A stretch of DNA of 63,936 nucleotides from an uncultured Clostridia bacterium. GTDB taxonomy: Bacteria > Bacillota > Clostridia > Oscillospirales > Ruminococcaceae. The notes beneath the pieces are model-generated. The model saw only the letters and a list, made by a program, of their open reading frames with translations, was not told the DNA's origin and searched no databases. This document shows, in pieces, positions 7,552 to 32,721 of the stretch. A program made the position numbers and the translations under genes. How positions within the stretch are numbered: the stretch's first letter is position 1; the number at the start of each line of letters is the position of its first letter. The DNA lies in NCBI GenBank assembly GCA_945873955.1, contig CAMCFA010000009.1, positions 1 through 63,936 on the forward strand, read 5' to 3'.

Positions 7552-8373
7552 ATGATGATAAGCTGCTATCCTGTTCTTGCGGCGCAGACAAAGCTGCCGT
7601 TCTATCTTTCCGGCGTGGGTATCTCCGACCCGGAATATCACGTCGTCCGGGAAAACGGGCTGGTTTCCTGCCAGATACTTTTCACCCGCCGGGGAAAGGG
7701 TATCCTCCGGGTGGACGGAAAGGAGCTTGTTCAGACTCCCGGAAGCATTTTCTTTTTGAGCGCGGGAGTTCCACACGAGTACTTTCCTGCTGCCCAGAAT
7801 GCGCCGGAATGTGACTGGGAAACGGCTTGGACAGTGTTCCGCGGGGCGCATTTGAACGAGATTCTGGCGGAGCTGGGCTTCGGGCGGTGGTGCGAGATAT
7901 CCGGGGCAGACCTTTCCGGCTGCGAGAGCATTTTCAACCGTATACTGTCCGCGGTGAAAGACCCTGTTTCCGGCGGCGAGCGCTGTTCCCTGCTTATCTA
8001 CGAATATATCCTTGAAGCGAGGGCGCTGATGATGACCGGCAAGTCCGGCAGCGGCGGGCTTATCTCCCCAGCGCTGAAACGAATGGAGGAGCAGTACATG
8101 CGGGACATCACGCTGGAGGAGCTTGCCGGGCTGTGTGGCGTATCTCTCCAGCACTTCTGCCGGGTATTCCGGGCGCAGACGGGTATGCGCCCTATGGAGT
8201 ACCTCGCCCGGCGCAGAATATCCGAGGCAAAGCGGCTGCTAAACTCAACAGACCGAAGCGTGACGGAGATATCCGCCCTCACCGGGTACAGCAGCCCCAC
8301 CTACTTCGGGACGGTTTTCCGCAGGTACGAGGGTACTACCCCGTCGGAGTACCGGCGCTCCCGGGTGCTGTGA
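7552..8373 (+). CDS. AraC-family transcriptional regulator
   Basis: A 273-residue regulator. The N-terminal 150 residues form a cupin-like sensing domain (LFTRRGKGIL..G.., PGSIFFLSAGVPHEYFPA). The C-terminal 100 residues hold two helix-turn-helices: ITLEELAGLCGVSLQHFCRVFRA and then RSVTEISALTGYSSPTYFGTVFR, ending in GTTPSEYRR. This domain order is typical of sugar-responsive AraC activators. It is divergent from vanW and immediately upstream of the GH59 gene. The two TTACA arrays, upstream of this gene and of the GH13 gene, are candidate targets if it is autoregulatory. The ligand cannot be deduced. Confidence 0.92.
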   Translation: MMISCYPVLAAQTKLPFYLSGVGISDPEYHVVRENGLVSCQILFTRRGKGILRVDGKELVQTPGSIFFLSAGVPHEYFPAAQNAPECDWETAWTVFRGAHLNEILAELGFGRWCEISGADLSGCESIFNRILSAVKDPVSGGERCSLLIYEYILEARALMMTGKSGSGGLISPALKRMEEQYMRDITLEELAGLCGVSLQHFCRVFRAQTGMRPMEYLARRRISEAKRLLNSTDRSVTEISALTGYSSPTYFGTVFRRYEGTTPSEYRRSRVL

Positions 8374-8408
8374 TGTTCATATTTTGAGAGTACGGCAAAT
8401 ATTTGTGA

Positions 8409-8437
8409 TTGAAAAACCCCTGCTTTCGGGCTATAAT
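8409..8437 (+). promoter_or_regulatory. Promoter of the GH59-like gene
   Basis: TTGAAA (8409-8414) and TATAAT (8432-8437) are 17 bp apart, 45 bp upstream of the original ATG at 8482. The GAAAGGGGCGC ribosome binding site precedes that ATG, not the downstream ATG at 8705. Confidence 0.8.
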
Positions 8438-8481
8438 GATGTTAACAAAGTTATAAAATAAATTCGAAAGGGGCGCACGTC

Positions 8482-8616
8482 ATGAAGCTAAAAGCAATTG
8501 CCGCCGCGACAGCGCTTATACTATTTCCTAATCAACCTATAGACTTTGTCTATAGGTTGAACCAACCGCCATGGCGGTTGGAGCGGCAAAGCCGCAGGAA
8601 AGCCGTTCAATACTGA
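8482..8616 (+). pseudogene. Severed 5' end of the GH59-like gene (signal-peptide start) running into the element
   Basis: From the ATG at 8482, behind a good ribosome binding site, the frame encodes MKLKAIAAATAL, the n-region and first half of a signal peptide. It then enters the inserted element at 8519 and reads through 31 element-encoded codons to a TGA at 8614-8616. The resulting 44-residue peptide is not expected to be functional. Removing the element plus one TTA copy joins this start in frame to the codons from 8706, giving a complete signal peptide. Confidence 0.8.
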
Positions 8617-8702
8617 TTCTGTCAAAACCAAAGGTTTTGACTAGCCGCCTTGCAGGCGGCTCACCTTATAGACTTTGTCTATAAGGTGATTAAGAATTAG
8701 TA
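8519..8702 (+). mobile_element. 184-bp palindromic MITE-like element, copy 1, inside a signal-peptide coding region
   Basis: The ends are TACTATTTCCTAATCA and, inverted, TACTAATTCTTAATCA (imperfect terminal inverted repeats). It is flanked by TTA at 8516-8518 and 8703-8705, a 3-bp target duplication. The interior is a chain of about six hairpins, for example CCTATAGAC/GTCTATAGG, CAACCGCC/GGCGGTTG, TCAAAACC/GGTTTTGA, AGCCGCC/GGCGGCT and CACCTTATAGAC/GTCTATAAGGTG. It encodes no transposase, so it must be mobilised in trans. A longer relative lies inverted at 32444-32721. Confidence 0.88.
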
Positions 8703-8704
8703 TT

Positions 8705-11458
8705 ATGACTGCGGTCAGCGCGGTATCACTCCCCGCCTACGCCGCGGGAACAGCGGGAAATGACGACAACACGGGGGCAAACACAATGAACATCATCATT
8801 AACGGCGACAACGCCAACACGCTGGAAAACATGCTCTACCGCGGCACCGGTATGGTGAGCGGCAACAACTCCTCCCGGCTGCTGCTGGACTACAAGAACG
8901 AAAATCCCGCCGCCTACTGGGAGATAATGAACTACATTTTCGGCAAAAAGGGGCTGGAGATAGCTCATCTAAAGCTGGAAATGGGCTCTGATGTGAACTC
9001 CTCCTCCGGCACGGAGCCTTCCGTAATGCGTTCCGAGGACGAGCCTGCCGACGTCACCCGCGGCGCAGGCTACCAGCTTGCCGCCGACGCAAAGACGATA
9101 AATCCCGACCTCACGCTGGATATGCTCTGGTGGAGCGAGCCTCTGTGGGTCACTAATGCCGAGGACGTTTACGCGGCGCGCTACAAGTGGTATAAGGAAA
9201 CTCTTGACGCCGCCTACGAGACCTACGGGCTGAAATTCGACTATGTTTCCGCGACCCAGAACGAGCGCGCCCGGGACAAAGACTGGATAAAATACCTGTC
9301 CCAGCACCTGAAGTCCGAGACCGACTGCCCCTACGACTATTCCTCCATTAAGATAGTTGCCGGCGAGGAGGTCTGCACATGGACGGCGGCTGGCGAGCTT
9401 CTCAAACAGATAAACGACGGCGATACCGAGCTGTCCGGCTCGATAGACGTAATGGGCAGCCATTACACCAGCAGCTCCTCCAAAGAGGCGAAGGAACTTG
9501 CCTACAACTACGGTAAGGAACTGTGGTTCAGCGAGGGCAGCAGTTCTATGTCCTACTCCGAGGGCGCGTGGCGCTTCGACGAGGGGAACTCCGGGCTTAC
9601 CGGCATTAACGGCGCGCTGGATATCGCCAACCGATATATCGCAATGTACCCTCAGGGCGGCATGACTCTCTGCCAGTTCCAGCCGGTAATCGCGGGATAT
9701 TACGACGGCGTGTGCTACTGCCAGAAGCAGTTCATCAACGCCGCAGACCCGTGGAGCGGCTACTACACCCTTGACAGCGGATTCTATGTAATGCTTCAGT
9801 TCACCCAGTTCATGGACAAGGGCTGGAGCTTCGTGGACGAGGCGTGCTACTGCGACGGCAAGCCCGGCGGCGACGGTCACGCTATGGTGGACGCGGTTTA
9901 CAGCTACCTCACCACATGCAGCCCGGACAAGAGCGATTACAGCACCGTCATCACCAACACCACCGCTGAGCCTATCACCTACGAATTCACCGTTTCCAAC
10001 CTAGCAAAGGCGGGAGATACCGTTTATCTCTGGGAAACAAGAGGCCCGGAGGGCGGCGAGTTCAACGAGAATTACTTCCAGCCGATAGGGACTGTCACCC
10101 CGGAGGAAAAGAACGGCGCTTACAGCTACTCCGTCACCGTGAAGCCCTATTCGATAATAACTGTTTCCACAATTGACCTGCCGCAGGAGGACTACTCCAA
10201 CAAGGACGCTTCTCAGCGCACCATTCTGGAGCTTCCCTACTCCGACGACTTCGATTACGCGGACTACCCGGATACCTACCTTTCTTCAAGAGGAAACGCG
10301 CCCCGCTACACCACCGACGAGGGCGGCGCATTCGAGGTAGAAAACGGCGTGCTGACCCAGCAAATAACCACCGACATGAAAGCGAAGGAGTGGGGCTGGA
10401 CTCCCGACCCGGTGACTAATTTCGGCGACGACCGCTGGTACAATTACAGCGTTTCTGCGGACGTTATATTCGCCCCCGCAGGTGACAAGAGCGCGAATTA
10501 CGCCGGCGTGGGACTTCGGTACAATCAGGGACATCTGGGCGCGTCCGGCTACTGGCTGAAGCTCACCGAAAGCGGCGAGTGGAGCTTATGGAAGAACAGC
10601 AGTGTGCTGGAAAACGGCACCTGCACCGCGGATACCTCCGCAACAGTAAACCTCAAAATTGAAGCGGTGAACGACAATGTTCGCTGCTGGGTGAACGGCG
10701 AGCAGGTGTGCGATTACACCGCCGGGGAGGTAAGCTCCCTAAGCGCGGGCAGGGCGGCGCTGTTCTCCTCCTATGACCGCAACGGCTTTGATAATCTTGT
10801 TATTGAAGCAGTGGACGGCGTTGAGCCGTACATCACCCGGTACGACAATACGAACGAGATGTTCAGCTACTCCGGCGAGTGGCAGCAGGACACCATGTCC
10901 AGCTTCAAGAACTACAAGCGCACGCTTTCCTCCGGAGAAGCCGGCTGCTCCCTCACCTTGGAGTTTGACGGCACAGGGATTGCCCTCACCGGCGGCGGCA
11001 AGGGCGCGACCGCGACCTACTCCATTGACGGCGGCGAGCCGCAGGAATACACTGTTCCCGTCACCGCGACAAGAGGTGTGACCTTCCTGCTTACCGATTT
11101 GGGAAACGGTCATCACACGCTGGAATTCACGATAACCGACGGCACGTTCAACGTTGACTCTGCGGAGATTTCCGGCGGCGAGGTGTTCACCGCGAAGCAG
11201 CTTAGGCACTCAATGGACGAGGTTTACACCTCTATGCAGAATAACGCGGTTCAGCCCGGTTCAACTGCGGAGGTTGCTTCCGGCGAAGCTGCGGACAGTT
11301 CCGGCAGTTCCGGGAACGCAGACAGTGCGGTGAGCGGCGACAGCTCCGGCGATAACGGCAGCTTCCCGGCGGGGGCTGTGGCAGGTATCGGTGCGGGCGT
11401 TGCTGCTGTTGCTGCCGCGGGTATCGGTATTGCGATAGCTAAGAAGAAAAAGAAGTAA
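8705..11458 (+). CDS. GH59 galactocerebrosidase-like glycosidase, signal peptide disrupted
   Basis: A 917-codon frame with GH59 landmarks: RGTGMVSGNNSSRLLLDY, SSSGTEPS, SATQNER with the acid/base Glu near residue 187, DVMGSHYTSS, and ELWFSEGSSS with the nucleophile Glu near 277. GH59 enzymes remove beta-galactose. Two beta-sandwich modules follow (about 520-690 and 700-850), then a Ser/Gly linker and a membrane helix ending in AKKKKK, so the enzyme would be surface-anchored. The present ATG at 8705 has no ribosome binding site, and the protein starts mid-way through its signal peptide (MTAVSAVSLPAYAAG). The true start at 8482 is cut off by the 184-bp element. The gene is therefore probably off unless the element excises. 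Confidence 0.82.
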   Translation: MTAVSAVSLPAYAAGTAGNDDNTGANTMNIIINGDNANTLENMLYRGTGMVSGNNSSRLLLDYKNENPAAYWEIMNYIFGKKGLEIAHLKLEMGSDVNSSSGTEPSVMRSEDEPADVTRGAGYQLAADAKTINPDLTLDMLWWSEPLWVTNAEDVYAARYKWYKETLDAAYETYGLKFDYVSATQNERARDKDWIKYLSQHLKSETDCPYDYSSIKIVAGEEVCTWTAAGELLKQINDGDTELSGSIDVMGSHYTSSSSKEAKELAYNYGKELWFSEGSSSMSYSEGAWRFDEGNSGLTGINGALDIANRYIAMYPQGGMTLCQFQPVIAGYYDGVCYCQKQFINAADPWSGYYTLDSGFYVMLQFTQFMDKGWSFVDEACYCDGKPGGDGHAMVDAVYSYLTTCSPDKSDYSTVITNTTAEPITYEFTVSNLAKAGDTVYLWETRGPEGGEFNENYFQPIGTVTPEEKNGAYSYSVTVKPYSIITVSTIDLPQEDYSNKDASQRTILELPYSDDFDYADYPDTYLSSRGNAPRYTTDEGGAFEVENGVLTQQITTDMKAKEWGWTPDPVTNFGDDRWYNYSVSADVIFAPAGDKSANYAGVGLRYNQGHLGASGYWLKLTESGEWSLWKNSSVLENGTCTADTSATVNLKIEAVNDNVRCWVNGEQVCDYTAGEVSSLSAGRAALFSSYDRNGFDNLVIEAVDGVEPYITRYDNTNEMFSYSGEWQQDTMSSFKNYKRTLSSGEAGCSLTLEFDGTGIALTGGGKGATATYSIDGGEPQEYTVPVTATRGVTFLLTDLGNGHHTLEFTITDGTFNVDSAEISGGEVFTAKQLRHSMDEVYTSMQNNAVQPGSTAEVASGEAADSSGSSGNADSAVSGDSSGDNGSFPAGAVAGIGAGVAAVAAAGIGIAIAKKKKK

Positions 11459-32443: not shown

Positions 32444-32721
32444 TACTAATTCTTAATCACCTTATAGACAAAGTCTATAAGGTGTGCCGCCTGCAAGACG
32501 GCTAGGGACACGCTGATTAAAGCGAAGCGTATCAAATTCAGCCGCGTGAGTATGCGCGTTTGAACGTGGCGAATTTGATTTAATCAGCGTTTCCCTTGTC
32601 AAAAACCTTTGGTTTTGACAGAATCAGTATTGAACGACTTTCCTGCGGCTTTGCCGCTCCAACCGCCATGGCGGTTGGTTCAACCTATAGACTTTGTCTA
32701 TAGGTTGATTAGGAAATAGTA
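32444..32721 (-). mobile_element. 278-bp palindromic MITE-like element, copy 2, at the BspA-like stop codon
   Basis: In reverse orientation it has the same termini as copy 1 (TACTAATTC..at 32444 and ..AATAGTA ending 32721) and the same chain of hairpins. It is flanked by TAA at 32441-32443 (the stop codon) and 32722-32724. Relative to the element, the duplicated triplet is TTA in both copies. It differs from copy 1 by an internal 93-bp palindromic insert and a few substitutions. Confidence 0.88.
32504..32596. mobile_element. Nested 93-bp palindromic mini-element inside copy 2
   Basis: It is bounded by AGGGACACGCTGATTAAA (32504-32521) and TTTAATCAGCGTTTCCCT (32579-32596), which match as an inverted repeat at 17 of 18 positions; TCAAATTC/GAATTTGA extends the pairing. 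Copy 1 lacks this stretch at the equivalent GGCTAG/TCAAAA junction. Confidence 0.75.

Follow-up and report, generated by a model that had tools for sequence, protein, structure and literature searches.

A structured, multi-copy MITE-like element, nearly always bordered by TTA in one orientation, probably recently inserted in the signal-peptide region of a GH59 gene of an uncultured Clostridia bacterium

Miniature inverted-repeat transposable elements (MITEs) are short, non-coding and multi-copy, with terminal inverted repeats, a target duplication, very stable folds and a mostly intergenic placement, as described in the cited sections of the reviews (PMC2229807, PMC10969869). The same traits were seen in a 184-bp element found in the signal-peptide coding region of a gene for a glycoside hydrolase of family 59 (GH59) in an uncultured Clostridia bacterium; the DNA analysed, here called the window, is the 63,936-bp contig C9, one of the 172 contigs of a 3.47-Mb genome (the own genome). 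Unlike MITEs, this element keeps its TTA borders in one orientation, is built of two separately closed three-hairpin modules around an unpaired linker, swaps modules, covaries strongly and had no partner enzyme in the families searched. Rickettsia palindromic elements (RPEs) resemble it in being palindromic and in their ability to lie inside genes; as far as the cited section goes, an RPE is fused in frame with the gene still translated, whereas the window element brings in a stop and breaks the frame (PMC2229807). The Caulobacter CIR repeats, in the same partial account, likewise have two structured arms and a linker instead of one end-to-end stem (PMC2229807), a likeness of layout, and the window element differs from them in having three hairpins per arm. 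End hairpins, strand-specific handling and a short target motif recall the palindrome-associated transposable elements (PATEs) and the repetitive extragenic palindromes (REP/REPIN) moved by TnpA_REP, within the sections cited (PMC7290912, PMC8266576); the window element differs from these in its terminal inverted repeats and in that a Y1 gene is missing from five of the eight other carrier genomes. The family was not found described in the sections consulted of the literature searched, including PMC2229807, PMC4390865, PMC10969869, PMC7290912 and PMC8266576, a search with subscription papers and preprints outside its scope.

The stretch is very likely a multi-copy, non-coding, MITE-like element, probably of recent arrival, inserted at TTA in the part of the GH59 gene that encodes the signal peptide. 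Insertion is established by the TTA on both sides, the sister copies, three orthologues lacking the element and the split reading frame. An earlier note on this DNA had placed a 184-bp element at 8519-8702 with TTA on either side, and on re-reading the sequence these coordinates proved right, as did its claim that removal of the element with one TTA rejoins the flanks in frame; the joined start reads MKLKAIAAATALMTAVSAVSLPAYAAG, and the insertion point falls between codons 12 and 13. A GH59 match was obtained in 11 of 61 genomes searched, the own genome included. The closest orthologues, in G004, G021 and G012 (82%, 81% and 75% identity), all begin with a continuous stretch that resembles a signal peptide (one or two positively charged residues, then a hydrophobic run and an alanine-rich end), with no element at the site, and the G004 DNA aligns straight over the insertion junction. 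The claim that a palindromic element splits the signal peptide is thus borne out by these three orthologues and by the many sister copies with the same TTA borders. Neither of the contrary observations that the note had named, orthologues with no continuous signal-peptide frame or a conserved leader, was made in G004, G021 or G012. Among more distant relatives, G014, G035 and G023 (44-45%) have GH59 starts that, judged by eye, resemble those of exported proteins or lipoproteins.

As it stands, the frame from 8482 stops after 44 residues (TGA 8614-8616) and the 8705 frame is closed upstream by a TGA at 8687-8689. The note had described ATG 8705 as lacking both a Shine-Dalgarno sequence and the n-region; the second part stands, the first needs a correction, for a Shine-Dalgarno-like AAGGTGA exists at 8683-8689, weak at best because it lies 15 nt from the ATG and within a hairpin arm. 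No lysine or arginine occurs in the first six residues of the 8705 product. Hydropathy on a simple scale, which is not a signal-peptide predictor, peaked at 1.38 for this product, 1.92 for the joined form, 2.12-2.30 for the three orthologues and 2.59 for the peptide from 8482. With a leader that breaks off at 44 residues and an enzyme frame that resumes at 8705, where the n-region is missing, the GH59 enzyme probably loses its export through the insertion. A ribosome starting at 8482 would make a 44-residue dead-end peptide, and any product begun at ATG 8705, lacking the n-region, would stay inside, leaving the enzyme unexported or hardly made. Exit of the element would leave one TTA and restore the gene.

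Between species, purifying selection acted on the GH59 gene, with pairwise ratios of non-synonymous to synonymous rates (dN/dS) against the window of ~0.12 (G004), ~0.15 (G021) and ~0.18 (G012). Counted by lineage, 38 synonymous and 46 non-synonymous changes fall in the window and 77 and 55 in G004, which hints at relaxed constraint in the window lineage and is not decisive. The frame past the element is still open across 917 codons, which was counted as a sign of recent insertion, and the window copy is probably young, as it is only 5 columns off the consensus of 17 copies.

The own genome contains 20 copies that could be delimited from end to end (55 to 278 bp, 14 of them at 182-184 bp), and G004 and G017 together gave four more. 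When the end pattern was searched without the TTA, 24 of 27 sources had the pair of ends, and the other three were divergent subfamilies. Terminal inverted repeats in the subfamily of the window (TACTATTTCCTAATCA and TACTAATTCTTAATCA) differ at 2 of 16 positions, and such repeats can be seen by eye in the divergent subfamilies as well. The element resembles a MITE in the broad sense in being short, non-coding (the entering frame stops) and repeated in many copies, in its inverted repeats and, judging from the TTA borders, the orthologous site that lacks it and the C96 repeat described below, in a target duplication; a right-end TTA carried by the element itself would look alike. One insertion, on contig C126, is common to the own genome and G004 (flank 94% identical), so some copies persist. 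A local comparison that looked for empty sites of other copies matched a border to a place in another genome in a single case, C126, where G004 carries the insertion as well; beyond this it gave the site of the window copy and, for C104, partial matches of the left flank. With a covariance model under strict filters, the layout was recovered from 3 of the 245 genomes of the order that were scanned (own, G088 and G127) and, among 291 of the class, from the own genome alone; both scans scored the best 8-10 candidates per genome, and absences in them are weak. Under laxer filters the layout was found in 8 of 38 chosen genomes, 36 of the 38 from the genus. Copies are thus also carried by related species and by members of two further families of the order, with a patchy spread. 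In G088 (60% complete) the model matched 47 times, a figure in which one or more places are counted twice, once per strand. No match was found in plasmids and phages, and the linker pattern matched two viral contigs, which are taken as chance because the model E was only 0.27 at each. Long copies with an inner gene were not seen among the end-pattern matches, one pattern being one letter too strict and missing the subfamily of the window. A second palindromic element (ends GGGACACGCTGATTAAA and GGGAAACGCTGATTAAA) lies at 32505-32595, nested in the second copy of the window (Table 1); similar stretches occur in or beside copies on C105, C149, C80 and C96, with a variant in G021:C105.

Each of the 24 copies found with the end pattern is flanked by TTA left and right, always in one orientation. 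A wider set comprises 45 rows: 43 carry TTA at either end in that orientation, a 44th is also TTA-bordered once its end coordinate is extended by one base, and the exception, L147, reads TCA and TAA. The count of 24 is the cleaner one, because the covariance model itself includes TTA at both ends. The 45 rows leave out contig-end pieces, a G021 copy with a broken right end, the C149 copy (nested insertion at its left end) and the C96 copy (inside another repeat, with TTA on both sides), together with three weak model matches, none of which has TTA at both ends: L135:6075 (TAA, TTA), L096:1258 (ACA, TAA) and L107:11821 (TTA, ATA). The flanks were compared at 42 distinct TTA sites, by construction those with TTA at both ends and with one duplicate dropped. 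They proved asymmetric: 38 sites have a pyrimidine at +4, and 30 have one at -4. Together with the single orientation, this is unlike a symmetric transposase, from which a palindromic preference, with TTA and TAA used equally, would be expected. The C96 copy sits in a second palindromic repeat, which is found intact in the window, starting at 32505, as GCTGATTAAAGCG; the interrupted repeat on C96 reads GCTGC, TTA, element, TTA, AAGCG, that is, one TTA before and two after, in the usual orientation.

Elsewhere the copies are found at scattered, mostly intergenic sites. In nine of 44 rows the right TTA coincides with the TAA stop of a facing open reading frame (ORF) of at least 100 aa (eight exactly, one off by one base). 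Overlap with a mechanically called ORF of at least 100 aa occurs in nine rows, eight of them at the ORF edge and one with a spurious 110-aa frame. Pfam was run on five of seven such ORF proteins; a domain was present in one of them, deep within the gene. A split coding region could be demonstrated, by means of orthologues, for the window copy alone.

The folding of the element far exceeds chance. Two perfect 13-bp palindromes with 3-nt loops (8532-8560 and 8661-8689) place hairpins near both ends, as in the subterminal hairpins of PATEs. The predicted fold reached -99.1 kcal/mol as RNA (z -13.8) and -62.7 as DNA (z -15.3), and in neither case was any of 200 shuffles as good. With 20 copies in a plain MAFFT alignment, 21 of 69 pairs were altered on both sides. 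An alignment of 37 copies from six genomes (own, G004, G017, G021, G088 and G127), which was fitted to the structure and leans towards it, gave 56 of 73 pairs altered on both sides, with 96.4% of cells paired; none of 500 shuffles reached this value, and sliding the partners gave at most 28 such pairs. Covariation scored 0.452, where shuffles gave 0.149 and slid controls no more than 0.095. Loops switch between AAA and TTT on identical stems. G-U cells numbered 41 against 31 A-C cells when one G-U-rich pair was left out, and 55 against 31 with that pair included. Because G-U is not clearly commoner than A-C, the counts hint at DNA rather than RNA as the folded form. A search of Rfam gave no family above its cut-off (best below it, E 0.14 and 0.016). 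A reading of the element as an RNA was set aside, there being no such match and no clear RNA signature in pair usage.

Whole modules have been exchanged between copies. With two types of left and two of right module, all four pairings occur in G088: L134 (1/1), L151 (2/2), L087 (1/2) and L089 (2/1). In the own genome, the copy on C82 joins the left half of one subfamily (92%) to the right half of another (94% identity), and the break in such swaps falls near the linker. Shorter relatives in G026, G008 and G028 keep GCCGTTCAAT or a close variant. Two head-to-tail arrays sharing TTA, L150 1498-1879 and L145 1268-1626 (G026, G008), have ~3 units each of ~121-127 bp with a linker of the GCCGTTCAAT type. 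Copies of 55 bp were seen at L056 1501-1555 and L057 1348-1402, where two ends enclose one hybrid hairpin between TTA borders; the inner parts may be dispensable for movement, or these copies may be deletions that followed insertion.

Within the account of a MITE-like insertion at TTA, the balance tips slightly towards a recombinase that acts in trans, recognises the folded single strand through the two three-hairpin modules and inserts strand-specifically beside TTA. Such an enzyme is favoured because of the fixed orientation, the asymmetric target, the conserved fold and the arrays. It is suggested tentatively, as possible rather than probable, that the element is of a new kind: orientation-locked and non-coding, recognised as a folded strand, with exchangeable modules around the GCCGTTCAAT linker, moved by a recombinase that would be neither a classical DDE enzyme nor a known Y1, and able to reopen genes by scarless exit.

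Several observations weigh against this account. No replication-strand bias was seen, whether judged from GC skew (15 of 33 rows) or from gene direction (13 of 33), the rows being partly non-independent. Covariation may stem from mutation as well as from selection, because the AAA/TTT loop flips suggest palindrome-arm events; template-switch repair of palindromes could be its source instead of selection. Since the distant GH59 relatives in G016 (53%) and G008:C199 (50%) start without an obvious signal peptide, an intracellular GH59 enzyme need not be useless, and a weak Shine-Dalgarno-like motif does stand ahead of ATG 8705. Terminal inverted repeats suit a DDE element. Searches under PF01797, PF01609 and PF13359, the families covered, found no enzyme with matching ends, some loci being cut by contig ends. 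The two own-genome matches to the Y1 transposase (PF01797), the loci to which the end check was applied, each have an internal stop and no element-like ends around them; Y1 was found in 5 of 24 other genomes and, among the eight other carriers, only in G008, G026 and G028. Five own-genome matches to DDE_Tnp_1 lacked a left-right end pair, three of these loci being cut by contig ends; single end-like octamers with one mismatch lie near DDE_Tnp_1 loci. DDE_Tnp_4 was found in none of the nine carriers.

An ordinary MITE of a DDE transposon, moved by cut-and-paste with a 3-bp TTA duplication and a transposase that distinguishes its two slightly different ends, is a serious prospect that falls short of an even chance. 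It would account for the inverted terminal repeats (two of 16 positions differing in the subfamily of the window, the divergent ones judged by eye) and for TTA on both sides, and the size, intergenic placement and stable fold agree with the cited parts of the reviews (PMC2229807, PMC10969869). It does not fit the fixed TTA orientation (24 of 24 copies, 43 of 45 rows) and the asymmetric flanks, it has no obvious need to conserve six inner hairpins, and the DDE genes found or missing, as given above, speak against it. A PATE-like, ends-only derivative of IS200/IS605 is another candidate: a Y1 HUH transposase would bind the end hairpins in single-stranded DNA, insert 3' of TTA and excise without a scar. 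Strand-fixed insertion beside a short motif is what the same counts show; hairpins stand at both ends, with a common TATAGAC core in the subfamily of the window, and the head-to-tail arrays and a pair usage without clear RNA signature agree with it. In the part of an IS605 survey cited, strand preference is likewise lacking, at 10 of 22 (PMC7290912). No conserved guide was seen by eye at the 5' foot of the left hairpin, Y1 genes occur in only three of the eight other carriers, and nothing element-like surrounds the two Y1 loci of the own genome. Terminal inverted repeats are present, and they are not a known feature of IS200/IS605. A PATE-like origin is accordingly rated rather unlikely, and the recombinase reading of the folded strand is kept as the preferred mechanism.

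Phase variation, in which the element would be precisely excised and reinserted to turn GH59 export on and off, is an extension of the reversible switch that the earlier note had put forward beside a fixed knockout; it is conceivable in principle, since the gene is restored exactly in frame when the element leaves together with one TTA. The intact promoter and ribosome site and an open GH59 frame under purifying selection between species (dN/dS ~0.12-0.18) would agree with it. The insertion is, however, one of many at scattered sites, no other placement of which has been shown to split a gene; the insertion common to G004 shows that copies can stay put, and the lineage counts hint, without clear support, at relaxed constraint. 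A dedicated switch is improbable on this evidence, and the window allele most likely represents an ordinary mutation with loss of export. That the stretch is no insertion at all, and belongs to the gene as a conserved structured leader or as an intron-like or bypassed stretch, draws on the strong fold with covariation. Its absence at this place from the three closest orthologues, the copies at scattered, mostly intergenic sites elsewhere, the lack of an Rfam family over the cut-off and G-U counts not clearly above A-C make this highly improbable. Introns and translational bypassing were dismissed, given that most of the other copies are intergenic.

Coordinates are collected in Table 1. The promoter and ribosome-binding site upstream of the gene are intact, as the earlier note had held; 2 promoter-like sites were counted in 431 bp against 0.6 in shuffles. 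From its position, the AraC-family protein is probably the regulator of the GH59 gene. Between the two genes (8374-8440) a stretch is partly kept in the orthologues (ATGTTCATATTTTGA...CAAATATTTGTGATTGAAAA) and is a possible candidate for the binding site of this regulator.

Table 1. Coordinates of the element, the split GH59 gene and neighbouring features in the window
Feature	Coordinates	Strand	Remarks
AraC-family regulator	7552..8373	+	Pfam HTH_18 E 1.6e-24, AraC_binding E 1.7e-10; directly upstream of GH59 gene
Sigma-70-type promoter TTGAAA-17-TATAAT	8409..8437	+	11/12 consensus positions; intact despite insertion
Shine-Dalgarno-like AAAGGGG	8467..8473	+	8 nt ahead of ATG 8482; read in sequence
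GH59 5' piece MKLKAIAAATAL	8482..8518	+	Severed by insertion; aligns with orthologue start in L022
Left TTA of target	8516..8518	+	
Structured mobile element, 184 bp	8519..8702	+	Sister copies in own genome; R1 model match 219.6 bits
Left module	8524..8601	+	Stem 8524-8529/8596-8601 around hairpins 8532-8560, 8562-8581, 8583-8595; fold and covariation
Linker GCCGTTC	8602..8608	+	Unpaired, between modules, runs into AATACT; conserved; module types change near here
Right module	8609..8704	+	Stem 8609-8620/8693-8704 around hairpins 8621-8641, 8644-8660, 8661-8689; fold and covariation
Right TTA	8703..8705	+	Its A doubles as A of ATG 8705
GH59 frame past element	8705..11458	+	917 aa; without first 12 signal-peptide codons; Pfam PF02057 E 4.6e-94
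Second copy in window	32444..32721	-	278 bp; TAA borders on + strand, TTA in element orientation

The split gene offers a clean natural experiment on a glycosidase, in which the state of the insertion predicts whether or not the enzyme is exported. The element family matters more than the gene split: its members are short, occur patchily in three families of one order, are inserted one way at TTA, keep their fold through paired changes and swap halves. Should the enzyme behind their movement be identified, a small, strand-specific insertion system could follow, as could a way to test whether selection, or copying errors that repair palindromes, preserves palindrome folds in mobile DNA.

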